Below are positions 4,723 to 30,238 of a DNA stretch of 30,238 nt, piece by piece. This DNA comes from a virus. A program made the position numbers and the translations under genes. How positions within the stretch are numbered: the first letter of the stretch is position 1; each line of letters begins with the position of its first letter. The DNA lies in IMG/VR virus record IMGVR_UViG_3300028595_000048, positions 1 to 30,238 of that record; one strand, written 5' to 3'. The notes beneath the pieces are model-generated. The model was not told the DNA's origin. It saw only the letters and a list, made by a program, of their open reading frames with translations, and did no database searches.

Positions 4723-5823
4723 ATGTCCGCAGGGAAGCAAACACAAAAAACGATCAACTGGGAACGATCAACCCAGCTGCGTACGATCGACGGTGCCTGC
4801 TTGCCGACCACTCGCACCAGCGACGGCGGCAGCGTGTCATCAGGCGTCCTGAAAGGTGTTCTTCGTGCCATTGATAGCTACTGCCGTGGCTCGTGGGGCT
4901 TTCCGTCGCAGAAACGGCTTGTTAAGGAGTCCGGCTTCTCAAAAAGACAGGTACAGCGTGCCATTGAGGTACTGCAGAAGATTGGCGTCTTGATGGTCGA
5001 GAGGCGGTCGTTTGGGAAGGGGCGTCGTACTGGTAATTTCTACTGCATTCTCTTCAGCGACTTGGCCCTGTTTCTCCCACGCGACGAGGCAAGTACTGTG
5101 ACCGATCAAAGTGCCACTGTGACCGATCAAAGTGCCACTGTGACCGATCAAAGTGCCACTGTGACCGATCAAAGTGCCACAGTGGCACTTTCCATGAAGC
5201 GCCCACCAGAAGCGCCCAAGGAAACGCCACCCCCTACCCCCTCGACCGCAACGGCCACTGTCGGCACCAGATCCGACGACACCGGGCATGACTGGAGGAG
5301 GGCGGCGGCGGAGTTGCGTTCGGAGGGGGTACGGTTTGTTTCGACCGTGATTGACGCGGCCAAACGTGGTGGACTGTCACCAGAACAGTTCGACGCGGAG
5401 GTTTTGGACGTGTACCGGGCGAATCGGTCGCGGTTTACGAGCCCCGGGGCGATGCTGACGCGATTGCGTCACGGGGAGTGGCCCGCGGAGGGCGTGGTCA
5501 AACCGCGGGCCGTGCACGAGGCACGCGTCCGGAAGAAGGGCCAGAGGGCCAGGGAGGCAGCGGAGCACCGGGCACGCATCGCGGAACAGCAGGCCTGGCG
5601 AGCGGAGTTTGCCTCGTTGAATGCGGCGTACGGTGCCGAGCTGGACGGCATGGAGGACTCGGAGTTGATGGAGTTGGCCCGACTGGCGTGGCCGACCCAC
5701 GCGTGTGATTTTATGTGGTCGCGGTTCCGTCGCGATCGCCGGAACAGTTACGAGCGGTATCTACTGCTAATAGCGATGGAGGGTTATCCCGTGCCGACGG
5801 CTAATAGAAGGCCAACCTCATGA
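4723..5823 (+). CDS. Winged-helix replication initiator candidate with internal iterons
   Basis: The 366-residue protein has an N-terminal helix-turn-helix domain at about residues 35-110 (WGFPSQKRLVKESGFSKRQV, then VQRAIEVLQKIGVLMVERR), as in HTH_36-type domains of phage and plasmid replication proteins. Residues 125-152 are four exact TVTDQSA repeats, then a Pro/Thr linker and a C-terminal helical, basic region with a long charged helix (about 255-300). ATG 4723 is chosen with AAGG upstream; ATG 4657 in frame overlaps the preceding gene. The stop overlaps the next start as ATGA. An initiator with origin repeats inside its own gene, followed by an exonuclease gene, resembles the lambda O arrangement. 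It could instead be a regulator. The helix-turn-helix is clear, the replication role is inferred. Confidence 0.7.
   Translation: MSAGKQTQKTINWERSTQLRTIDGACLPTTRTSDGGSVSSGVLKGVLRAIDSYCRGSWGFPSQKRLVKESGFSKRQVQRAIEVLQKIGVLMVERRSFGKGRRTGNFYCILFSDLALFLPRDEASTVTDQSATVTDQSATVTDQSATVTDQSATVALSMKRPPEAPKETPPPTPSTATATVGTRSDDTGHDWRRAAAELRSEGVRFVSTVIDAAKRGGLSPEQFDAEVLDVYRANRSRFTSPGAMLTRLRHGEWPAEGVVKPRAVHEARVRKKGQRAREAAEHRARIAEQQAWRAEFASLNAAYGAELDGMEDSELMELARLAWPTHACDFMWSRFRRDRRNSYERYLLLIAMEGYPVPTANRRPTS
5095..5191 (+). repeat. Four perfect 21-bp iterons and terminal palindrome: candidate replication origin
   Basis: Four identical 21-bp units lie head to tail (5095-5115, 5116-5136, 5137-5157, 5158-5178). 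Each contains CGATCAA and GTGCC. The array runs into a perfect palindrome AAAGTGCCAC-A-GTGGCACTTT (5171-5191). Two further CGATCAA copies lie near the gene start (4751-4757, 4765-4771). Exact identity at the third codon position argues for selection on DNA or very recent duplication. Iterons inside an initiator gene are typical of lambdoid origins. A clearly AT-rich unwinding element is not visible next to the array, which weakens the call. Confidence 0.5.
5794..5811 (+). repeat. 18-bp exact repeat, copy 1
   Basis: CCGACGGCTAATAGAAGG occurs here and again at 7544-7561, in both cases 8-19 nt before a well supported start codon (5820 and 7581). Here it is inside the 3' end of the initiator gene. 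The AGAAGG end can serve as Shine-Dalgarno for the exonuclease gene, so it may be a translation or processing element. Confidence 0.5.
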
Positions 5824-6578
5824 TACTAGCTATCGACGCAACCAACGACGTCCACGTGATGGCCCACGCGATGGGCGACGCGACGCCAGACGGCCTGGCC
5901 GCGGCGGTTGTCACGCGGATGGAACACGCGGCCGAACTGGTCAACGCGTCGCATGTCGTGGCCGCCTTTGATGAACCGTCGAACTTCCGAAAAGAGTTGT
6001 GCCCGACCTACAAGGCCAACCGGTCGCATGATCCGCGGATCGGTGATTATCTGGCCGCGACCTTCCAGCGGTCCGCCGCGATCGCCACACCGGTCGCGGT
6101 CGCCGGATTCGAGGCGGATGACCTGTTGGCGACCCTGGCCGCGATCGGGGCCCGGCGGGCGGAAAAGGTGGTATTGGCAAGCCCGGACAAAGATCTCCGG
6201 CAATGCTTGCGGCCTGGCCTGGTTACGCAACTCAAGAAACTACAACGCCGCGGCGGCCGGTCGGTCCCGACGTGGTATTGCGCGGCGACCCTGCAAAAAG
6301 AGCACGGCCTATTGCCCTATCAATGGCCCGACTTCCAGGCCCTGGTCGGCGACCAGGGCGACAATATCACCGGTTGCCTTGGCATCGGTCCGAAAACCGC
6401 GGCGGCCCTTCTGACCGACCTCGGAACGCTTCACGCCATCCTCGCCAATCCCTGGCGGGCTAAGGTAACCGACCGGATCCGGCAAGCGCTGTTTGACTTC
6501 AAGAAACGGGCCGACTTGGTCCGAAAATTGGTAACACTGATCGATAATGTAGAAGGGGTAAACGATTGTCTGAGATGA
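5820..6578 (+). CDS. 5'-3' exonuclease, PolI N-domain/FEN family
   Basis: The 252-residue enzyme should cut 5' flaps or degrade 5' ends, removing RNA primers during phage replication. The metal-binding acidic residues of the family are all visible: D6 (ILAIDATN), D51 (AAFDEPSNFRKEL), the GFEADDLLATLA block (E99, D100, D101), D123 and D125 (SPDKDL), and D178/D181 (VGDQGDN). The helix-hairpin DNA-binding motif GCLGIGPKTAAALL is at 185-198, and FRKELCPTYKANR at 56-68 is the helical-arch signature. Length matches stand-alone phage and PolI-domain exonucleases; no polymerase domain follows. ATG overlaps the stop of the initiator gene (ATGA), so the two are translationally coupled. Confidence 0.93.
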   Translation: MILAIDATNDVHVMAHAMGDATPDGLAAAVVTRMEHAAELVNASHVVAAFDEPSNFRKELCPTYKANRSHDPRIGDYLAATFQRSAAIATPVAVAGFEADDLLATLAAIGARRAEKVVLASPDKDLRQCLRPGLVTQLKKLQRRGGRSVPTWYCAATLQKEHGLLPYQWPDFQALVGDQGDNITGCLGIGPKTAAALLTDLGTLHAILANPWRAKVTDRIRQALFDFKKRADLVRKLVTLIDNVEGVNDCLR

Positions 6579-10131: not shown

Positions 10132-11025
10132 ATGCTCCGAGCCCTCGTAATGACGCTCTGTTTGCTGGCCGCCGCCGCGGTGGTCGATGGGGCGGACTGC
10201 GTGCATCGCGTGCCGCTCAGCCGTTGCTGCCCGTGGTGCCCTCCAGGCGGCCGGTTGTGCCAGCCTGGCCCGATGCCGGTGCCGAGTCGGCCGACGACGA
10301 CATATCCGGCGGCCCCGCCGGCACAGCCGAGCCCACCCGTGACGCCGCCGAATTCCCAGCTGACTGCACGCGTCCAGCAATTGGAAGACGATCTGGATGC
10401 CTTGACCATCAAAGCGACCACAACGTACGAGGAGCTGCAGGGCCTGAATACGTCGATCCACTCGGTCCGCACGGAGCTGGCCACCGTGCGGTCGATCACG
10501 AAGGCGACTCACAGCGAGCTGACCACGTCGATCGATACGGTCCGGACATCCAGCGAGGAGGCGACGGATAGTCTGGCGTCCCAGTTGGCCAAGCGAGCTC
10601 CGGCCTGGCTGGCACTAGCCGCCGGCGGGACACCGATCGGCGCGGTTGGGGCGGCGGGATTATGGGCCGTCAGTGCGTGGTGGCAGCGACGACGGAAGAG
10701 GAAGACATCCGAAATCCGAACTCCGAACTCCGAAACAAATTCGAATGAGCCAAGCGGCGACGGTGTCGAGCGGTGTTACCGACGTCTGAGAGGTGACCTG
10801 ACGAAACTGCGTACGCGGATCGACCAGATGGCGAGTCAAGAACCGCAAGTGATCGTCAAGCAAGCCAAACGCGACCGCGAATTCGTCGAGATCGACACGG
10901 GATCCAAGCGATTGCAGGCCCTGCAGAAGGCCATGGACGAATACGTGTCTCGCAATCCCGGCGCGAGGGCCACTATTGAAACCCTGGAGGCGTTCGCCGA
11001 TCAATTCGAAAGCGGCGACAAGTAG
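10132..11025 (+). CDS. Exported or anchored coiled-coil protein
   Basis: The 297-residue protein begins with a typical signal peptide (residues 1-20, LVMTLCLLAAAAVVDGADC), followed by six cysteines, a Pro-rich section (about 48-72), a long coiled coil (about 75-150, LTARVQQLEDDLDALTIKA), a transmembrane helix (about 158-183, APAWLALAAGGTPIGAVGAA) and a charged cytoplasmic-type tail with KRDREFVEIDTGSKRLQAL. It could span the cell envelope, like a spanin, or be a surface exclusion factor; both are inference. A copy of repeat family A lies inside the gene (10706-10752) and codes for SEIRTPNSETNSNEPS just after the basic stop-transfer sequence, without breaking the frame. Confidence 0.6.
   Translation: MLRALVMTLCLLAAAAVVDGADCVHRVPLSRCCPWCPPGGRLCQPGPMPVPSRPTTTYPAAPPAQPSPPVTPPNSQLTARVQQLEDDLDALTIKATTTYEELQGLNTSIHSVRTELATVRSITKATHSELTTSIDTVRTSSEEATDSLASQLAKRAPAWLALAAGGTPIGAVGAAGLWAVSAWWQRRRKRKTSEIRTPNSETNSNEPSGDGVERCYRRLRGDLTKLRTRIDQMASQEPQVIVKQAKRDREFVEIDTGSKRLQALQKAMDEYVSRNPGARATIETLEAFADQFESGDK
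10706..10752. repeat. Family A repeat inside a coding region
   Basis: The stretch consists of repeated TCCGAA-type hexamers (ATCCGAACTCCGAACTCCGA) ending in AAATTCGAATGAGCCAAG, the same end as the other family A copies (TTCGAATGACC). It is in frame within the 10132 gene. Confidence 0.6.
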
Positions 11026-14709: not shown

Positions 14710-15489
14710 ATGTTTTGTCTGTCGGTATTCCCTGGCATTGATTTGTTCGGGCGAGCCTTCGAAACCGAGGGCTTTTGCGTAGTCCGCGGCCCTGATCTTC
14801 TCTGGGGTGGTGACGTCCGGCGATTTCATCCACCCGCCGACCGGTTCGACGGAATCCTTGGTGGCACTCCGTGCCAGGATTTTTCGCAGGCCAGACGCTC
14901 ACCACCGACAGGGCAGGGCGTCGCCCTGATGGCGGAATTTTGCCGCGTCGTGCAAGTGGCGAACGTTGAATGGTACGTCCTGGAAAATGTCGCCAGGGCG
15001 CCTGATTGCAGAGTGCCAGGCTACGCATACCAGCGCATCGACGTGAATCAGGGATGGTATTCCGGCGTATCGCGGTTGCGGCATTTTCAGTTTGGGAGTC
15101 GGACAGGACAGACGCTTCAAATTCCGAGGGGCAAGCCCTGCCGCGGGTTGGACCCCGCGGCCTTGGCACATGACAGCCGAGGGTTTCGCGAGGTATGCAG
15201 GATCCAGGGTCTGCCGGACGACTACGATCTGCCGGGATTCACAGCAGCGGAAAAGGTGCGCGCTGTAGGCAACGGGGTGCCCATGGTGCTTGGCCGTGTC
15301 GTCGCGAGAGCCATCCGACGTGCGTACGGTCTGGGCGTCGACGGACGTGATCCGGTATTCAACAAATCCACCGTGGTTGTCCGGCGATGTGCCTGTGGAT
15401 GTGGCCGAGAGGTCACAGGCCGTGCGCTGTACGATTCGGCAACCTGCCGCAAGCGGGCAGAACGGGCCCGTGGACGCGCTAGAGCGTGA
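14710..15489 (+). CDS. DNA (cytosine-5) methyltransferase
   Basis: The 259-residue enzyme should methylate cytosine at C5. Motifs in order: I, LSVFPGIDLFGRAFE (residues 4-18); IV, GGTPCQDFSQ with catalytic Cys 55; VI, LENVARAP (ENV 92-94); VIII, VSRLRHFQFGSR (about 120-131); X, VRAVGNGVPMVLGRVVARAI (about 183-203). The protein is short, so the target-recognition region is small. After motif X it carries an added segment with a Cys cluster, CACGCGREVTG... ATC, a zinc-ribbon-like tail. No Shine-Dalgarno precedes ATG 14710. It interrupts the terminase-to-portal order and is flanked by repeats, so it may be a later insertion; protection of packaged DNA is the likely role. Confidence 0.88.
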   Translation: MFCLSVFPGIDLFGRAFETEGFCVVRGPDLLWGGDVRRFHPPADRFDGILGGTPCQDFSQARRSPPTGQGVALMAEFCRVVQVANVEWYVLENVARAPDCRVPGYAYQRIDVNQGWYSGVSRLRHFQFGSRTGQTLQIPRGKPCRGLDPAALAHDSRGFREVCRIQGLPDDYDLPGFTAAEKVRAVGNGVPMVLGRVVARAIRRAYGLGVDGRDPVFNKSTVVVRRCACGCGREVTGRALYDSATCRKRAERARGRARA

Positions 15490-15693: not shown

Positions 15694-15894
15694 ATGGCCG
15701 ACCATACCACAGAAATTGCACGTATTCGCGAGCTACTTCGCTCCGGCGCCAAGTCCGTCACGGTCGACGGTGTGACCACCACGATCGACACGGCAGAGCT
15801 GAAACGGCAACTCCGCGAACTGATCAACGACGACGACGCCAGCGTTGGCAACCGTAGGCCGTTTGCCCAGGGGGTCTACCTGGGAGGATTCTAG
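15694..15894 (+). CDS. gpW-like head-tail joining protein
   Basis: The 66-residue protein is taken from ATG 15694; the frame starts earlier (15619) but that section is basic, of low quality, and has no ribosome binding site. It shows the gpW layout: helix ADHTTEIARIRELLRSG, a strand pair AKSVTVDGVTTTIDT, helix AELKRQLRELINDDD and an end in NRRPFAQGVYLGGF, like the basic-aromatic end of lambda gpW. gpW binds the portal ring and closes the filled head. Its place between terminase and portal matches lambda order A-W-B. The region 15490-15693 before it has no convincing gene. Confidence 0.6.
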   Translation: MADHTTEIARIRELLRSGAKSVTVDGVTTTIDTAELKRQLRELINDDDASVGNRRPFAQGVYLGGF

Positions 15895-15974
15895 GTATCA
15901 GGTGTTAGGTGTCAGGTGTCAGTACGCCCAGCCACTACACCCCTGACACCTGAAACCTGACACCCGAAACCTGA
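15895..15974. repeat. GTGTCAGGT interspersed repeat (family B), copy 1
   Basis: Directly after the gpW-like gene, tandem AGGTGTCAGG-type units on one side and CTGACACCTGAAACCTGACA on the other make an imperfect inverted repeat around TACGCCCAGCCACTACACC. Related copies: 18620-18668, 21552-21567 and 23737-23820. It ends four bases before the portal start. Confidence 0.7.
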
Positions 15975-18619: not shown

Positions 18620-18668
18620 GCCACCTGACACCTGACACCTGCGCCCTGACACCTAAAACCTGAAACCT
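18620..18668. repeat. Family B repeat, copy 2
   Basis: Tandem CACCTGACACCTG units, then CCTGACACCTAAAACCTGAA, lie between the protease and major capsid genes. Only one orientation is present, so no hairpin forms. The capsid gene keeps its own GGAG 8 nt before ATG 18687. Confidence 0.65.
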
Positions 18669-18686: not shown

Positions 18687-19646
18687 ATGACCCGCCCAAC
18701 CCTGCTTGACATCGCCAAGCGTAACCTGTCCGACAGCGAAGTCGGCCTAGTGGAAGAAGCCATTTACGAGACGCCCGAAGTCAGCGGCCAGTGCCGATGG
18801 ACGGGAAACAGCGTGGCCGGCGTCGGCCAGTCCAAGCCGATCAAAGGCTTGAACTACTACACCCGCGTCCGCACCGCGTTGCCCTCTGCCGGCTTCCGAG
18901 GCGTCAACGAGGGTGTGACGGCCGTCAAGTCGACCTGGGAAAACCGCCTCGTTGAGACCTTCATACTCAACCCGAGGTGGGAATGCGATCAGGCCGAGGC
19001 CGAGGCCAACGAGGACGGCCCGGAAGCGTTCATTGCCGAGGAAGCCGACGCGATCACGAAAGGCGCGTTCCTCCAGTTGGGCCGACAGTTCTACTACGGG
19101 ACGAACACCAGCTACGGCGGGCACGCCAAAGGCTTCCCCGGCCTAATCGACGCCTACGACGCGACCAACATGATGGTCGACGCCGGCGGCACTACGGCCA
19201 ACACGGGATCTTCCGCGTGGCTGGTCAAGTGGGGCCCTCGCGATACCCGCTGGGTAGTCGGCAATAACGGATCGTTTTCTATGTCCGATATCCGTATGGC
19301 CGACTTGCTGGACGGGTCTAGCAATCCGTTTACCGGATACGTGCAAGAAATGCTCGCCCGCCTCGGTTTGCAGGTTGCCAACCCGGCGATCAGCCTCTGC
19401 CGCATCAAGAAGCTGACGGCCGACAGCGGCAAGGGCCTGACCGACGACCTGATCACCCAAGCTATGATGAAAATGAAGATCCGGCCGGACGCCATCTTCT
19501 GCAGTCGTCGCAGTTGGGGCCAGTTGCAGCAATCCCGCACAGCGACCACGGCCACGGGCGCCGAGGCTCCCATGCCCACGGAAGTGCACGGCATCCCGCT
19601 GATGGTAACCGACGCAATCTACGACACCGAATCGCTTACGCTGTAA
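18687..19646 (+). CDS. Major capsid protein candidate (HK97-fold)
   Basis: The 319-residue protein follows the protease/scaffold gene, the standard place of the major capsid gene, and has suitable length and composition. N-terminal helices (LLDIAKRNLSDSEVGLVEEAIYETPEV) are followed by GLNYYTRVRTALPSAGFRGVNEGV, a long acidic helix ECDQAEAEANEDGPEAFIAEEADAITK resembling the spine helix of HK97-type capsids, FYYGTNTSYGGHAKGFPGLIDAY and the C-terminal P-domain-like part ending IPLMVTDAIYDTESLTL. PDAIFCSRRSWGQLQQSR is also typical. No direct signature motif exists for this fold, so the call rests on layout and context. Confidence 0.8.
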   Translation: MTRPTLLDIAKRNLSDSEVGLVEEAIYETPEVSGQCRWTGNSVAGVGQSKPIKGLNYYTRVRTALPSAGFRGVNEGVTAVKSTWENRLVETFILNPRWECDQAEAEANEDGPEAFIAEEADAITKGAFLQLGRQFYYGTNTSYGGHAKGFPGLIDAYDATNMMVDAGGTTANTGSSAWLVKWGPRDTRWVVGNNGSFSMSDIRMADLLDGSSNPFTGYVQEMLARLGLQVANPAISLCRIKKLTADSGKGLTDDLITQAMMKMKIRPDAIFCSRRSWGQLQQSRTATTATGAEAPMPTEVHGIPLMVTDAIYDTESLTL

Positions 19647-19649
19647 GTG

Positions 19650-19688
19650 AAATTCGAACTCCGAAGCACGCAATCCGAAACTGGAACC
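19650..19688. repeat. Family A repeat, degenerate copy
   Basis: AAATTCGAACTCCGAAGC and CAATCCGAAACTGGAACC lie between the capsid and decoration genes. The hexamer theme TCCGAA is the same as in the in-gene copy at 10706. Confidence 0.5.
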
Positions 19689-22568: not shown

Positions 22569-22898
22569 ATGTTGGAATCACCCGAGACGCCGGAGCCGGG
22601 TGTCGAGACGCCGGAGTTGGGTGTCGAGACGCCGGAGTTGGGTGTCGAGACGCCGGAGTTGGGTGTCGAGACGCCGGAGCCGGGTGTCGAGACGCCGGAG
22701 CCGGGTGTCGAGATAGAGTTGCGGGCGATCATCGAAGCACAAACCCGGGCGATCGTCGCGTTCCCTGACTCCATGTTTGTTGCAATCCCGGCCGGACGGC
22801 TTCGGCTACTAGCGATCCATGTGGATGCCCGCATCTGTGACGCCACACCACACAAAATTCGCGTCGGCGACCTGCGAAAAGCCCTTTCGCTGGCCTGA
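22569..22898 (+). CDS. Protein with six ETPELGV/ETPEPGV heptads
   Basis: The 109-residue protein (ATG 22569 after AAGGAA) starts MLESP, then carries six nearly identical heptapeptides (about residues 6-47) coded by a 21-bp minisatellite, followed by a 60-residue globular part (ELRAIIEAQTRAIVAFPDSM, RLLAIHVDARICDATPHKIR, VGDLRKALSLA). The acidic Pro-rich repeat is likely extended and flexible, with copy number prone to change. It lies just before the chaperone pair; function unknown. Confidence 0.55.
   Translation: MLESPETPEPGVETPELGVETPELGVETPELGVETPEPGVETPEPGVEIELRAIIEAQTRAIVAFPDSMFVAIPAGRLRLLAIHVDARICDATPHKIRVGDLRKALSLA
22584..22709 (+). repeat. 21-bp coding minisatellite, six units
   Basis: Six consecutive 21-bp units differ only at one dinucleotide (CC in units 1, 5 and 6; TT in units 2-4), which changes Pro to Leu. 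Near-perfect identity points to recent slippage or unequal exchange. Confidence 0.85.
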
Positions 22899-23511: not shown

Positions 23512-23738
23512 CCTGGCGGAAACTCGCCTGGATGGCCGAGGCGAAACAATTTGACGACTGGGACCGCATGTCGGCCCTGCTTGCCAAGCTGCATAACTGT
23601 CACGCCCGCAGCCACGCGCAAGTCGAACCCGCCGACATGCACCCCATGATCAAGCAAGGCAGCCGGCCGGGAGCGCAGGAAACCACGGGCTCGTTCAATC
23701 GCGCCATGTGCGACGCCCTCGACCAAATCGAGCGATAG
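23358..23738 (+). CDS. Tail assembly chaperone extension (gpT-like, -1 frame)
   Basis: The -1 frame carries WREIYRLGAIADVWPEQRGV, then TWRKLAWMAEAKQFDDWDRM and SALLAKLHNCHA, a sequence typical of second chaperone parts (W-x2-I-Y-R-L-G ... MAEA ... DWD ... LLAxLHN). The convincing part begins about 23439, 90 nt before the first ATG (23532), and has no ATG, GTG or TTG before it. It therefore must be reached by frameshifting from the gene at 22984. The fused product would be about 250 residues. The 60-odd nt between the slippery site and 23439 give a low-complexity linker in this frame. Reinitiation at ATG 23532 for a 68-residue protein is the alternative. Confidence 0.6.
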   Translation, partial: PGDRASDRPDAGEPLDEPGPRPDPADRSIAIWREIYRLGAIADVWPEQRGVTWRKLAWMAEAKQFDDWDRMSALLAKLHNCHARSHAQVEPADMHPMIKQGSRPGAQETTGSFNRAMCDALDQIER

Positions 23739-23820
23739 GTGTCAGGTGTTAGGTGTCAGGTGTCAGAAAAGACGCAGGACACACGACCTGACACCTAACA
23801 CCTGACACCTGACACCTGAA
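23737..23820. repeat. Family B repeat forming a 24-bp perfect inverted repeat
   Basis: Arms 23737-23760 and 23787-23810 are exactly complementary over 24 bp (built of AGGTGTCAGGTGTTAGGTGT units) around a 26-nt loop. The first arm overlaps the stop codon of the chaperone extension and the repeat ends one base before ATG 23822. A large hairpin between chaperone and gp10-like genes would form in RNA. Confidence 0.8.
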
Positions 23821-24557: not shown

Positions 24558-27221
24558 ATGTCTGCCCGAGAAATCAAAGCCGGCCGCGCCGCGATCGAGG
24601 CATTCCTCGATACGTCGTCGTTGCAATCCGGACTGCGAGGACTGGGGCGCAAGCTTAAAGCCGCCGGGGCGATCGCCGCCAAAGCCGGCGCTGCCGTCAC
24701 CATGACCGGCGCGGGAATTCTCGCCCCGTTGCTGGCCTCGGCTGCCAGTTTCGCCAAGTCCGGCGACGTCTACAGCAAAATGGCGGACAAGACCGGCGCG
24801 ACGGTCGAGTCACTCTCGCAGCTAGGCTACGCCGCTGAAATCTCCGGAGCCTCCGTTGAAACGCTGGGCACCGGGTTCAAGTCGATGAACCGCGTGATCG
24901 GCGAAGCGGCCGACGGTACCAAAACCGGCATCGACGCCCTGTCCAAGCTCGGCCTGACCGTTGAGGATCTGCAAAAACTCTCTCCGGATAAACGGTTCGA
25001 GCTGATCGCCGATCGAGTCAGCAAGATCGCCGATCCGTCGTTACGCTCGGCCGCCGCCATGGAGGTGTTCGGCCGATCCGGCAATGAGCTACTTCCCATG
25101 ATGCTACGCGGAGCCGACGGCATCCAGCAGCTCCGCCAGCGAGCGGACGAGCTGGGATTGACGATCAGCAGCAGCGACGCGGCCGGCGCCACGGCCCTGT
25201 CGGACGGATGGACCGACGTCACCAAACAGCTCGCGAGAACCAAGGATATGATCGGCGCGAGTCTGGCTCCGACGCTCACTGACCTACTACAGCGAGCCAC
25301 ACCCGTCCTCACCAAGACCATCAAGTGGATCGACGCCAACCGCGAGCTCGTCGTATGGCTCGCAAAGGGTGCCGCGATTATCGCAGCCGTAGGCACGGCC
25401 ATCACCGTGTTTGGTGGCGGACTAATGGCGGCCGGCATGGCAGCCAGCGGACTGGCCACCGTCGTAGGCGGAATCGGGGCCGTGCTCGGTGTCGTGCTCT
25501 CGCCCATGGGCTTGCTGGTAGCCGCCGCGATCGCCGCGGGGGCTGCCATCTACGCTCTGGGTCGATCCGGTCAGCTGGACGGCCTGATCGACGGTATCAG
25601 CACGGTCATGCAGTGGGCCGGAGACCTCTTGGCCAAGTTCGGCGAATGGTCCGGCATCACTGGACTGATCAACTCCGTTTCCGGAGCACTCGGCGACGTC
25701 GGCAGCTACCTCGGCGGCGAGCTGATGGACCTAATCGGCGAACTGGGCGACATCTTCGGAGATACGTTTGCAGGCGTGCAGGACGCGATTGCGGCCGGCG
25801 ACTGGAAGTCAGTCGGCAAGATCATCATGTCCGGGTTGGAGGCCGCCTGGCTGGCCGGAGTCGCTACACTGACCGGAATCTGGGAATCGCTCAAGGTCGC
25901 CATGATCGAGGCCTTTGCGGGCGTGGTGATCGCCGTCCAAAAAATGTGGACGGACATGCAAAACAAGGTGTCTAACCTGATCATTGAATGGTCGACGCAA
26001 GACGGAGCCATGGGCGCCGCTGCCCGTGCCGTGCTGGGTGTTGACCTGCGCGGCATGGACGAACGCGACCAACGCCGGGCCGAGGACGCCCAACGTAACT
26101 CCATCGACCTGATGCAACAGCAGCTAGCCGAAGCCGAGGCTCAGCTGTCCCAGATCGGCGACACTGAGCTGGGAGTCACCGTAGACGAACCCGAGCCGGT
26201 CACCGATCCGCTAGAAGACGTCCGGGATCTTCCAGACGCCGAACTGGCCGTCACCGTAGACCAACCCGAGCCCGTAGCATTCGATCGGGTACCGCCTCCG
26301 GAGCCTGCACCCGCTGCAGCCCCACCGGTCGATCGAGCGACGCAGGATCCGGCGACGTCGGCCGCCACGCCTCCAGACCCAGCGCCGCCAGCTGCTCAGC
26401 CGGCCACGCCTCCGGAACTTGTACCCGCTGCAGCCCCACCCCCGGATCCGGAGTCGCAGGATCCGGCGCCGACTCTAGGAACGCCCCCAGGACCAGCGCC
26501 GCCAGCTGCTCAGCCGGCCACACCTGCCGAGCCCCCAGCCTCGTTTAACCCGAAGCCGGAGGCGCAGGCGTCGAACGGCCCCCAACCCCTCAACCAACTA
26601 GACGAGCGCCAGAAGCTACAAGACAAGGTCCTCGACCTCCAACGCCGCATCAGGCAATCCCAGGAAAACCTCGCCAGCGGCAACCTCCGCACCGGCCCCA
26701 CGATCGACCCGGCCGAGGAAGCCCAACGCCTGGTAGACCAAGCCACCGAAGCCAGCCAGGCCGCCGTCGGCGCCTACTGGGGAGGCCTCGCCAAAACGGC
26801 CAAAGACACCTCGCAGGTCCTGATCGACGAAGCCGACCAGGAAGCCGAGGAAGCCAAGGCACGACTGAAAGCAGCACGCGAAACCAGCGCAGCATCCCGC
26901 AAGGAGCGCGAAGCCGAGCGAGCAAAGGCAAATCAGGAACGCCAGGCCAAAGCCGCCGAGCGAGCGAAAGCCAACCAAAATACCGCCGTCACCGCCGCCG
27001 CCAAGAACGACGGACCGGACCCCACTGCCGACGGCAACGACACTATTCCAAAACGTAGCGTCGCCGGCACATTCTCCGGCTACCGCCTCGGCTCCCAGTT
27101 CTCCCGAGGCGGTCTTGAGCAGACCGCCCGCGAGCAACTGAGCGTCCAGAAGCAATCGCGAGACGAACAAAAAAAGACGAACAAGCATTTAGCTAGGCAG
27201 AAACTGGTCTACGGGGCTTAG
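24558..27221 (+). CDS. Tail tape measure protein
   Basis: The 887-residue protein should set tail length and be ejected into the host at infection. It opens with AREIKAGRAAIEAFLDTSSL and the small-residue helices typical of tape measures (AAGAIAAKAGAAVTMTGAGI), then a block much like TP901/Mu-type proteins: FAKSGDVYSKMADKTGATVE, LSQLGYAAEISGASVETLG, LGLTVEDLQKLSPDKRFELI, FGRSGNELLPMML. Hydrophobic helices follow at about 268-345, a Pro/Ala-rich linker at about 570-670 with repeats of PDPAPPAAQPATPPE type, and a charged coiled coil to the end. If the usual 1.5 Angstrom per residue applies, the tail would be about 130 nm. The ribosome binding site is weak. Confidence 0.88.
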   Translation: MSAREIKAGRAAIEAFLDTSSLQSGLRGLGRKLKAAGAIAAKAGAAVTMTGAGILAPLLASAASFAKSGDVYSKMADKTGATVESLSQLGYAAEISGASVETLGTGFKSMNRVIGEAADGTKTGIDALSKLGLTVEDLQKLSPDKRFELIADRVSKIADPSLRSAAAMEVFGRSGNELLPMMLRGADGIQQLRQRADELGLTISSSDAAGATALSDGWTDVTKQLARTKDMIGASLAPTLTDLLQRATPVLTKTIKWIDANRELVVWLAKGAAIIAAVGTAITVFGGGLMAAGMAASGLATVVGGIGAVLGVVLSPMGLLVAAAIAAGAAIYALGRSGQLDGLIDGISTVMQWAGDLLAKFGEWSGITGLINSVSGALGDVGSYLGGELMDLIGELGDIFGDTFAGVQDAIAAGDWKSVGKIIMSGLEAAWLAGVATLTGIWESLKVAMIEAFAGVVIAVQKMWTDMQNKVSNLIIEWSTQDGAMGAAARAVLGVDLRGMDERDQRRAEDAQRNSIDLMQQQLAEAEAQLSQIGDTELGVTVDEPEPVTDPLEDVRDLPDAELAVTVDQPEPVAFDRVPPPEPAPAAAPPVDRATQDPATSAATPPDPAPPAAQPATPPELVPAAAPPPDPESQDPAPTLGTPPGPAPPAAQPATPAEPPASFNPKPEAQASNGPQPLNQLDERQKLQDKVLDLQRRIRQSQENLASGNLRTGPTIDPAEEAQRLVDQATEASQAAVGAYWGGLAKTAKDTSQVLIDEADQEAEEAKARLKAARETSAASRKEREAERAKANQERQAKAAERAKANQNTAVTAAAKNDGPDPTADGNDTIPKRSVAGTFSGYRLGSQFSRGGLEQTAREQLSVQKQSRDEQKKTNKHLARQKLVYGA

Positions 27222-27274: not shown

Positions 27275-27322
27275 ATTGATTTCGACGTTGTTTCGAATTT
27301 CGATATTCGTATTTCGACTTTG
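27275..27322. repeat. Family A repeat, second inverted copy
   Basis: GATTTCGACGTTGTTTCGAA and TTTCGATATTCGTATTTCG lie in the 109-bp gap between tape measure and next tail gene; this matches 24505-24541 closely. No gene or promoter is seen in the gap. Confidence 0.75.
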
Positions 27323-27330
27323 GGCCGCCC

Positions 27331-28179
27331 ATGTCCATCACGATCGCAGAACAGCCCACCAGCCAATCGGGTCGCGCCGCCGTCGACTCCACAACGGAGA
27401 TTGACTTGACCTGGCGACTCAAGGGCAGCGACATCCTATCCGCCCTGCTGACGGTCCTGGACGCCGAGGCACCCGCTACGATCACCGATCCCGTCTGGCT
27501 CCGTACACTGATCCGCGGGGCCATGCAATGGGAACGCATCGGGTTCGAACTCTACGATTTCACGATCACCTACATCGACCTCCTCGCCTACGACAAGAAG
27601 CGTGAGATCGACACTGGCGAAATTCGCTGGTCTGGATCCACTACGGGCGGCACGCTCCGCATTGTCAGCAGCCTAGAGACACTCGACAGCTACGCACCGT
27701 CCGGCGAAACAGCCCCGGATTTCAAACAGGCCATAGGTGTCACCAGCGAGGGCGGAGACCCCGAAGGCGTCGACATCGTAGTGCCGGCGTCGAAATTCAC
27801 CTGTGAATTTCGTCACCCCTTGGCAAGCTGTACGGTCGCTTTTCAGGCCCTTTTAGAGACGATGACGGGCACGATCAACGACGCCACATTCTATGGCCGC
27901 CCTGCAGGCGAAGTGCTGTTCCTCGGCGCCGACTGGGCCGTAGGCACGAAGGCCGATCCGTCGTTTACTTACCACTTTGTCCGCATGCCCAATTTGTCCA
28001 GTCAGACCATCGGCGACATCACTGGCATCAGCAAACGCGGCCACGACTACCTGTGGGTTCTCTTCGAATCTGAGGTTGACGACGCCGCCAAGTTTTTGGC
28101 AAAACGACCCAAGGCCGTGTACGTAGAGCGCATTTACCTGGAAACGTCATTCGCGGCCCTTGGTATAGGGGTCAGCTAG
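27331..28179 (+). CDS. Distal tail protein candidate
   Basis: The 282-residue protein follows the tape measure gene, where distal tail or baseplate hub proteins are encoded. It is a mixed beta protein: TSQSGRAAVDSTTEIDLTWR, FELYDFTITYIDLLAYDKKR, EIRWSGSTTGGTLRIVSSLE, GEVLFLGADWAVGTKADPSF, TYHFVRMPNLSSQTIGDITG and HDYLWVLFESEVDD. The part from FLGADW to the end resembles a short domain that many phage tail-tip proteins share, but I cannot name the family. Its stop overlaps the GTG start of the next gene by one base, so both are probably translated together. Confidence 0.6.
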   Translation: MSITIAEQPTSQSGRAAVDSTTEIDLTWRLKGSDILSALLTVLDAEAPATITDPVWLRTLIRGAMQWERIGFELYDFTITYIDLLAYDKKREIDTGEIRWSGSTTGGTLRIVSSLETLDSYAPSGETAPDFKQAIGVTSEGGDPEGVDIVVPASKFTCEFRHPLASCTVAFQALLETMTGTINDATFYGRPAGEVLFLGADWAVGTKADPSFTYHFVRMPNLSSQTIGDITGISKRGHDYLWVLFESEVDDAAKFLAKRPKAVYVERIYLETSFAALGIGVS

Positions 28180-30238
28180 TGGCACTCAAACCCGTTCAAC
28201 GCGGCGACAAGTGGACACCGTCCGCCAGCCGCGAAACCCAAGTCGGTGACGCCGTCAACTGGGTCCAGGCTACCCAGTTCTCCAAACAACGAGGCCTCGA
28301 CGCCCGCCTGCCCGATCCCGATCGCGTCCTAGCAATCAACGGCAGCTGCTCGGACTACGACCGGTTTGACGCCGTCGAACTCTACGACCCGATCGTCAAG
28401 CCAGAGGACAGCCTGTCGGCCTGGACCGATGGCCCGCCCGCATTCCGCGTCCGCACGCCCGAGAGCGAAAACGCACGCATCGTCATCCTGCAGGAGCCCC
28501 TGCCCACCTGTGGCACCCGCAAGGCGATCGCCAGCGGAGTCACGCGCACGCAAATCCACGTCAGTGCCGCCAGTCACCGTTTCGCCAAAGTATCGGCCGG
28601 CAGCCGACGCCTGGTCAGTACCGACGACACCAACGCCCCGGTCGAAATTATCTGGAAAGAAGACGGCACGGGCGAACTCTACGCCGACGTCCTCCTGAGC
28701 ATCCGACGATCGGCACCGACGACCGCAACCACCGCGGCGGCCACGACCAGCGAGCCGGACGAGTTCGAGGCCGCCTCCTGCACGGGCACCTGCAAGTGGC
28801 TTAGCCTCGACGGTGTCACCTGGTCCCTGGACACCGACGGTTGCGGACCCGCCACTACGACGACGGCCCCACCGACCACGACCGCCGTGCCAACCACGAC
28901 CGCCCAACCGACAACTACGACCACTTGCTGTGCCTTCCACATCGGCACAACCACGACGAATGGCCCCACGACTACTACCGACGGCCCCTCGACCACCACG
29001 ACCTCTTGCGAGTGTGCTTACCCGACGATCTGCCCCAGCGTCGCTTATGAGTGTACGTACACGTACTGCGTCTGCGGGGCCATCAACAGCCCGCCGGACT
29101 GCGACGCGTCCACGACCACCACCACCGACGCTCCGACCACCACGACCACCTGCGATTGCAGTTCCGTCGACCCGCCCGATCCCTGCAGTCAGGGCTGTGA
29201 CTGGGTTGGCATTCCCGGCCAGGACGGCTCGTGGTCCTGGACGCTGTACGCGAACGGGTGCGAATCCACCTGTGGGTGCCCTCGGCCGGAAACGGATCCC
29301 ACGTGTGCCGCTGCTCACACCGACTGCGTCCTGCCGCCGCCGCCCCCACCTACCACGCCCCCGCCGGGCTGTATGGGCAGCTGTCTCTGGATGTGGATCG
29401 ACGAGCTGAGCCTCTGGTACAACTACAATCATGGGTGTACGGGCTTGCACTTCTGCAACTGTCAACCGCCCAGCGTGCCCGGACCATGCGGCGCCTCGGA
29501 TTGCTGCGAAGATCGCACCCCGTGCGTAGCGACGTCGGGTAGCGGGGGCGGCAGTCCTGCCAGCACCACGACCAGCGAGTGGACTTACTGCCAGTACGTG
29601 TGCTATGGCGAGACGACCACCAGCACGACAGCGGGTCCAACGACGACCACCACGCCCGACTGTGACACCGGCAGCTGCACCTACCTAAGCGACGCCACTG
29701 CTACCGGCTGGGTAGGTCCGTCCGACAGCACGTGCCCCTCCGGCTGCCCCTGCAGCGAGCCTGCCCGCCTGCCCTACGACGATTGCGAGGTCGTCTCCCG
29801 TCCCTGCACGGGCACGACAGGGCCACCGACCACCACTACGGCAGTTCCCACCACGACAACGACGCTCGTATGCAGCGGCCCGTGCGTCTCTGAGTGCGAT
29901 GGGGATACGGGTGTTTGGTCGCATATATCGAGCGACTGCAGCGGCCCTTGCCCGGAGCCAGGGGAGTGCGGATGTTGGTCCGTACCGACAGACCCCTGCG
30001 GCCCCGGAAACGACGGCGAAACGCAAGACGTCGGCTGCGAGTGCTTAGGGTCTCCGACGACCACGGCAGCTCCGACCACGACGGCAGCTCCGACCACGAC
30101 GGTAGCTCCGACGACGACGGCAGCTCCGACGACGACGGTAGCTCCGACGACGACGGCAGCTCCGACGACGACGGCAGCTCCGACGACGACGGCAGCTCCG
30201 ACGACGACGGCAGCTCCGACGACGACGGCAGCTCCGAC
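28179..30238 (+). CDS. Cys-rich modular protein with Thr-Pro linkers, unfinished at right edge
   Basis: From GTG 28179 (after AGGGG; one-base overlap with the preceding stop) the frame is open to the end of the window: 686 codons, no stop. Residues 1-185 are Cys-poor and end in RRSAPTTATTAAATTSEPDE. After this come Cys/Trp modules separated by Thr-rich linkers (PTTTTAVPTTTTT). Modules start near residues 201 (CTGTCKWLSLDGVTW), 336 (CSQGCDWVGIPGQDGSW), 398 (CMGSCLWMWIDELSLWY), 495 (CDTGSCTYL) and 565 (CSGPCVSECDGDTGVW), each with a later Cys group such as GCESTCGC. A further Cys-rich part lies at about 277-302. The end is ten 18-bp units coding for TTTAAP/TTTVAP. Its place after the distal tail gene suggests a tail-tip or receptor-binding role. 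The function is inferred. Confidence 0.8.
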   Translation, partial: MALKPVQRGDKWTPSASRETQVGDAVNWVQATQFSKQRGLDARLPDPDRVLAINGSCSDYDRFDAVELYDPIVKPEDSLSAWTDGPPAFRVRTPESENARIVILQEPLPTCGTRKAIASGVTRTQIHVSAASHRFAKVSAGSRRLVSTDDTNAPVEIIWKEDGTGELYADVLLSIRRSAPTTATTAAATTSEPDEFEAASCTGTCKWLSLDGVTWSLDTDGCGPATTTTAPPTTTAVPTTTAQPTTTTTCCAFHIGTTTTNGPTTTTDGPSTTTTSCECAYPTICPSVAYECTYTYCVCGAINSPPDCDASTTTTTDAPTTTTTCDCSSVDPPDPCSQGCDWVGIPGQDGSWSWTLYANGCESTCGCPRPETDPTCAAAHTDCVLPPPPPPTTPPPGCMGSCLWMWIDELSLWYNYNHGCTGLHFCNCQPPSVPGPCGASDCCEDRTPCVATSGSGGGSPASTTTSEWTYCQYVCYGETTTSTTAGPTTTTTPDCDTGSCTYLSDATATGWVGPSDSTCPSGCPCSEPARLPYDDCEVVSRPCTGTTGPPTTTTAVPTTTTTLVCSGPCVSECDGDTGVWSHISSDCSGPCPEPGECGCWSVPTDPCGPGNDGETQDVGCECLGSPTTTAAPTTTAAPTTTVAPTTTAAPTTTVAPTTTAAPTTTAAPTTTAAPTTTAAPTTTAAP
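30057..30238 (+). repeat. 18-bp tandem repeat coding for TTTAAP/TTTVAP
   Basis: Ten units of 18 bp (consensus ACGACGACGGCAGCTCCG) run to the window edge, with variants ACC for ACG and GTA for GCA in the first units. The array is cut by the edge, so its true length is unknown; assemblies often break in such arrays. Confidence 0.9.

Follow-up and report, generated by a model that had tools for sequence, protein, structure and literature searches.

A predicted virion fibre of Cys/Trp modules on threonine-rich linkers, with an associated glycosyltransferase, in a phage linked to Planctomycetota

Two kinds of described systems are among the closest to the protein reported here. The β-tulip proteins include, according to a review, gpD, gp8.5, TW1 gp56, the triplex proteins and MoeA (PMC7602432). 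The decoration proteins of this fold are trimeric on capsids and resemble the phi29 appendage, gp8.5 combines a β-tulip base with a spike that protrudes from it, and attachment can be mediated by decoration proteins (PMC7602432). The second kind concerns sugars on the particle: in work cited in PMC11256854, the virions of the mycobacteriophages Che8 and Rita are glycosylated by phage enzymes. On the side of the host, Cys-rich proteins occur in planctomycete cell walls (PMC8567305).

The window, that is, the whole stretch of DNA analysed here, corresponds to the complete record IMGVR_UViG_3300028595_000048, which comprises 30,238 bases and has no end repeats. Family profile searches identified genes for a terminase (gpA type), a lambda-type portal, a protease, a GP7-type capsid protein and a tape measure protein upstream of the last gene. 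The phage also has integrase and repressor genes, which suggests that it is temperate. For the capsid protein (18687-19646), the closest phage record is 33% identical and belongs to Akkermansia phage Chantilly, likewise a phage of the PVC group; Chantilly was considered as a fuller relative and rejected, as it shares the capsid type but differs in the two genes examined at its tail end. Two DNA methyltransferase genes lie at 165-887 and 14710-15489 (PHROGs). Heptamer arrays of AGGTGTC / CCTGACACCTGACACCT occupy three intergenic gaps (15893-15974, 18622-18668 and 23737-23819), each immediately 5' of a late gene (portal, capsid and a 218-aa gene), and in two of the gaps they form inverted arrays that face each other. 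Another heptamer type, ATCCGAA / TTTCGAA, is found near 10707-10745, 19650-19685 and 27280-27320, while in-frame 21-bp tandem repeats at 5095-5184 and 22583-22713 encode TVTDQSA-type and ETPELGV-type peptides in other genes of the window.

The right end of the window is read on the plus strand throughout. The tape measure protein (887 aa; 24558..27221) was assigned with PHROGs (tail length tape measure, 5e-45) and is 43% identical over 344 aa to its counterpart in the Planctomycetota genome G460. It is followed by a 282-aa tail protein (27331..28179), which shares 36% identity (4e-47) with L172:4647-5441 and whose gene lies directly 5' of the fibre gene in relatives. The fibre gene itself (28179..30238) starts with a GTG codon that overlaps the TAG of the upstream gene 27331-28179 by one base, and its 3' end lies past the contig edge. 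As the initial annotation had stated, the frame (28179-30236) is open for 686 codons as far as that edge, and the encoded protein contains 51 Cys, 16 Trp and 136 Thr residues. Profile searches of Pfam, PHROGs and NCBIfam gave no family match for the protein, and its N-terminal anchor matched nothing in Pfam or PHROGs, so that neither corresponds to a fibre family known to these collections. No solved structure matched below E 0.3. Single-sequence searches returned nothing for the whole protein against viral contigs and phage records, for the array protein of the viral contig L012 against phage records, or for the tail protein and the capsid protein of the window, each alone, against viral contigs, because these queries were too narrow.

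The protein carries five homologous Cys/Trp modules, all of which were found by a profile of other phages only. With this profile, built without any window sequence and applied with a domain cut-off of at least 8 bits, we obtained five domains in the real protein versus a mean of 0.001 in 1,000 plain shuffles and 0.008 in 1,000 shuffles with fixed Cys positions, and the real total score was reached by none of 2,000 shuffles. The consensus of 26 aligned modules reads C-x(2,3)-C-x-W-x(n)-W-x-L-x(n)-C-x(n)-C-x-C-x2-P-x(n)-C, in which C, C, W and C are invariant and C, C, P and C are present in at least 90% of the modules. Some of the 26 had been chosen partly by the same Cys/Trp pattern, and the independent profile and shuffle test therefore weighs more. 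None of the 26 modules matched a Pfam family, no PDB sequence matched a module, and no fold match was significant, although these searches may have missed a relation to known small Cys-rich domain families. The AlphaFold2 model of module 2 (pLDDT 89, pTM 0.68) shows a β-hairpin with a third strand; on this prediction, the module is a confidently modelled small Cys-rich fold without a Pfam or PDB match. The Cys/Trp modules on mucin-like linkers proposed from the sequence are thus real, as a profile free of window sequence recovers all five and no shuffle equals their score.

The gene begins with the anchor domain, a predicted β-tulip of residues 1-~180 (28179..28718), which leads through a first Thr/Ala-rich linker (28719..28778) into module 1 (residues 201-222, 28779..28844; 11.1 bits with the non-window profile), a half module without the C-x-C part. 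Thr-rich linkers that include a short CC piece (28854..29006) and a short Cys-rich stretch (residues 277-308, 29007..29102), which scores only 1.1 bits and is no standard module, separate it from module 2 (residues 336-383, 29184..29327; 17.7 bits), which is complete. A poly-Pro linker (residues 385-396, 29331..29366), found at the equivalent position in G460 and in the genome G519, is followed by module 3 (residues 398-449, 29370..29525; 11.1 bits) and module 4 (residues 495-543, 29661..29807; 13.5 bits), both complete and with a short CQYVC piece (residues 471-475) between them. Module 5 (residues 565-620, 29871..30038; 8.2 bits) is atypical in that its first Trp position is non-aromatic. 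Finally, an 18-bp tandem repeat (30052..30238; 10.4 copies, 95% matches) codes for TTTAAP/TTTVAP, and the assembly ends inside it. The earlier description of five similar modules joined by Thr-Pro-Ala linkers consequently holds for the homology of the five, but two of them, modules 1 and 5, depart from the type, and the linkers consist of one poly-Pro stretch and others that are Thr-rich without being near-identical.

Near-identical linker repeats occur only in this terminal array, and the assembly probably broke off at the contig edge because of it. Complete relatives terminate in T/S/P-rich tails, and the break of the contig probably lies near the end of the array protein. It had also been suggested that module number could vary by recombination between linkers. 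The data do not support this: the other window modules are just 24-33% identical to module 2, which marks them as old, the close relatives in G460 and G519 have the same five, and the order is partly kept. Collinearity of module order was supported between the window and L012 (permutation fraction 0.025), weak between G460 and L012 (0.08) and not supported between the window and G460 (0.21), so that a conserved order between distant phages appears at most as a tendency. Slippage in the 18-bp repeat would alter the length of the tail and leave the module count unchanged.

Relatives were sought with DNA patterns for the junction between Thr linker and module, a degenerate scan having been dropped because the module alignment was too variable for it. 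The junction pattern yielded viral contigs with long ORFs of like build; most matches were due to chance and were removed by a module profile HMM, which retained five true viral relatives (L005, L012, L017, L113 and L146). Low-scoring matches in G424, G425, G429 and G462 were set aside. In L146, a papain-family protease gene (5373-6263; Peptidase_C1, 1.2e-4) lies a few genes 3' of the array. A pattern scan of genome contigs returned mainly unrelated organisms, but also a Fimbriiglobus genome (Planctomycetota), which served as the starting point for a scan of the phylum. That scan, with up to 18 candidates scored per genome, gave at least one array in 392 genomes and revealed the array of G328, and a scan of the family of G328 led to the array-bearing G460. 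Complete array relatives are known from five contigs of viruses and from three genomes of Planctomycetota. A profile search with the modules, as the initial annotation had proposed, thus found similar array proteins in both phages and Planctomycetota; related phages do have such a protein, and the modules do align with one another.

Two of the three array-bearing Planctomycetota genomes share the gene order tape measure, tail protein of 264-282 aa, array protein and glycosyltransferase. On the contig G460:C341, the tape measure protein (43% identity), the tail protein (36%), one more protein (60%) and the N-terminal part of the array protein (28%, 2e-9) are homologous to those of the window, and the contig continues from the phage block into bacterial genes. 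By eye, McrBC-like, large helicase and SIR2-like genes adjoin this phage block (L172/L176, G460:C341:10856-31809), a possible defence island. A profile of the tail protein matched in 20 of the 170 genomes of the family of G328. The closest homologous block to the window thus lies in a Planctomycetota genome, and the anchor domain is encoded in 18 of the 246 Planctomycetota genomes sampled (7%), in none of 249 Pseudomonadota and in one of 199 Acidobacteriota. The planctomycete host assumed earlier is therefore well supported by these sequence comparisons. The third genome differs in context: the array of G328, with SSSSSP linkers and a glycosyltransferase (L161/L162, G328:C1:1328400-1356000), sits within a bacterial chromosomal island whose other genes encode more glycosyltransferases, a helicase, an AAA+ ATPase and a protein that, by eye, resembles PIWI-domain proteins. 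No recognisable virion genes were found in the readable part of this island, alongside which about 12 kb read N.

The anchor domain is more widespread than the array. An HMM of relatives without the window detects it in the window protein with 76 bits (1.9e-25), and a separate scan found it encoded at 340 viral loci. In a first round (27 proteins, 31 loci) it stood directly after the tail protein in most loci, and among the best 80 of the 340 loci a tail gene lies beside the anchor gene in all 80. Its C-terminal continuation varies, being an array in the window, L172, L215 and L183, a Ser-rich region in L220, L234, L181, L298 and L308, collagen-like GPT repeats in L314 and short domains in other loci. 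Judged from these sequences, the anchor is a separate domain with interchangeable C-termini, the plan of phage adhesins; a conserved N-terminal anchor with an exchangeable C-terminal part is the feature of phage receptor-binding and tail fibre proteins that is present here.

The AlphaFold2 model of the anchor is of moderate quality, with a mean pLDDT of 69, block means of about 70-91 over residues 50-170 and a poor prediction of the first 46 residues. Its best fold matches were HFTV1 (Z 11.5), FCWL1 (10.2), T1 (9.9), phi29 gp12 (9.1) and phi29 gp8.5 (8.0), and every match that ranks before a drop in Z from 7.0 to 4.6 belongs to the decoration, head-fibre base or appendage proteins of phages; lambda gpD, SHP, herpesvirus triplex proteins and MoeA-type proteins rank lower. 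Because these matches coincide with the β-tulip set of the review (PMC7602432), the modelled anchor very probably has a β-tulip fold. The tail-tip location given in the initial annotation is consequently uncertain. Synteny makes the tail end the slightly more likely site on the virion, as the fibre gene follows the tape measure and tail protein genes outside the head module; the predicted fold, known from proteins that decorate capsids and from the bases of head fibres, makes the capsid more likely.

A glycosyltransferase gene comes next in all eight readable array loci (G001, G002, G003, G004, G005, G460, G519 and G328), or beside six of six arrays after merging close relatives. By comparison, it is present at only one of the ~49 anchor loci that have no array and enough downstream DNA, the exception being L228, where a Thr/Cys-rich small protein precedes it. 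The association is significant by Fisher's exact test (2e-7; six merged lineages versus the ~49 anchor loci without an array), the loci having been selected by array or anchor and never by enzyme. The window stops before any downstream glycosyltransferase gene is reached; its fibre gene would probably end shortly past the TTTAAP repeats and be followed by one. The enzymes 3' of arrays form one family with the start TIGMATYDD or similar, which matches Pfam Glycos_transf_2 and is of GT2 type. A profile of this family aligned to most of the catalytic domain of polypeptide GalNAc-transferases, within positions 18-247 of 288 and with weak similarity (E 4e-6 to 3e-3), whereas for most bacterial GT2 enzymes among the matches listed the alignment was limited to the N-terminal part. 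A scan of five relatives, one of them with an incomplete sequence, revealed no C-terminal ricin-type lectin domain. The family thus appears to bear a distant and weak resemblance to mucin-type O-GalNAc transferases, with a predicted activity to match, and the enzyme may coat the linkers of the array with sugar, although its substrates could be glycans on the host surface instead. With a glycosyltransferase adjoining every readable array, O-glycosylation of the fibre, as previously suggested, is predicted and probable.

Taken together, we lean slightly towards interpreting the protein as a surface fibre on the virion of a temperate Planctomycetota phage, in which an anchor would bear Cys/Trp modules on glycosylated Thr linkers and serve attachment to the host envelope. 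The β-tulip anchor would trimerise on the phage particle, and the neighbouring enzyme would O-glycosylate the Thr linkers inside the infected cell. The module cysteines would pair at or after lysis; a point against disulfide-held modules is that phage proteins acquire their fold in the cytoplasm, an environment in which disulfides are poorly formed before lysis. The moderate quality of the anchor model and the G328 array, in an island without recognisable virion genes in its readable part, also weigh against the fibre reading. The stiff glycosylated stalk would then keep the modules away from the particle and allow them to contact the Cys-rich, protein-rich planctomycete envelope, enabling attachment; in this reading the modules would bind a host receptor. 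A narrower proposal, to which we give somewhat less than even credence, is that the Thr-linked disulfide-bead fibre and its own mucin-type O-glycosyltransferase form a dedicated cassette that builds a mucin-like virion fibre, with the bead as a new domain family.

The fold of the anchor also fits a head fibre, a reading that we regard as possible but rather doubtful. A trimeric β-tulip anchor would then sit on the capsid, as in phi29 gp8.5 and lambda gpD, and the array would radiate from the head as a glycosylated brush that shields the particle or adheres loosely to surfaces, with a separate gene encoding the tail receptor-binding protein. The leading fold matches, the plan of gp8.5, the attachment role open to decoration proteins (PMC7602432) and the collagen-like C-terminus in L314 agree with it. 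It accords less well with the position of the gene, which adjoins that of the tail protein rather than the capsid gene in the 80 best loci; in the window the capsid gene is followed by a different small gene, and phi29 gp12, a tail appendage, has the same fold. Alternatively, modules and glycosylated linkers could bind nothing and be a mere spacer or shield, which protects the virion or lifts an unseen C-terminal binding domain. The C-terminus is missing in the window, and L012 and G460 do have a different Cys-rich stretch C-terminal of the modules; the array proteins of G460 and G519, however, finish with a long T/S/P tail and have no globular domain at their end, and we consider this explanation unlikely.

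A non-virion role, as a surface protein that the phage carries for lysogenic conversion or that derives from a host, is brought to mind by the G328 array among host-like glycosyltransferase genes and by the Cys-rich proteins of planctomycete walls (PMC8567305). We hold it to be very improbable, given that the N-terminus does not look like a signal peptide by eye and that both the anchor domain and the position in the late structural block are conserved in phages. An assembly artefact or chimeric ORF at the contig edge, which the terminal 18-bp repeat might evoke, has a negligible chance of being correct, since independent contigs and genomes contain complete homologues that agree with it in architecture and gene neighbours.

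If the virion-fibre interpretation is true, a phage produces a fibre that is mucin-like, bonded by disulfides and coupled to an enzyme, which would be a concrete candidate for the way in which tailed phages handle the unusual planctomycete surface. It would also offer structural biology a domain family whose structure is still to be solved, and studies of bacterial O-glycosylation a glycosyltransferase naturally paired, in compact form, with its Thr-rich substrate. The anchor domain is, in addition, a marker for finding planctomycete prophages.

Compared with known systems, the nearest counterpart is the prophage block of G460:C341 (L172) with its near twin G519:C174 (L215), which has the tape measure, tail protein, anchor, five modules and poly-Pro linker in the same order as the window. 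Unlike the window, both are complete, with a long T/S/P tail and two glycosyltransferases next, and their N-terminal identity to the window is 28%. The proteins phi29 gp8.5, lambda gpD, T1 and TW1 gp56 share with the anchor its predicted fold and the combination of an anchor with a protruding C-terminal part. The window fibre has no sequence-family match to these β-tulip proteins, its gene lies beside tail and not capsid genes, and its C-terminal part is a Cys/Trp array instead of a helical spike. With Che8 and Rita, as far as the cited account describes them, the window system has in common phage glycosyltransferase genes and glycans on virion proteins, the latter only predicted here; in that account the major capsid protein is modified, whereas here a Thr-rich fibre would be tied to one enzyme family. 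The neighbouring enzyme is like the polypeptide N-acetylgalactosaminyltransferases in its GT2-type profile over most of the catalytic domain and in the adjacent Thr/Pro-rich, acceptor-like linkers; it differs in that it resembles them weakly, showed no lectin domain and has an activity that is a prediction. The array protein is, in sum, a variant of the anchored virion fibre with exchangeable outer parts, a plan already known, and what is new here is the anchor domain with its swapped C-termini, its β-tulip prediction, the association with a glycosyltransferase and the unmatched fold of the module.
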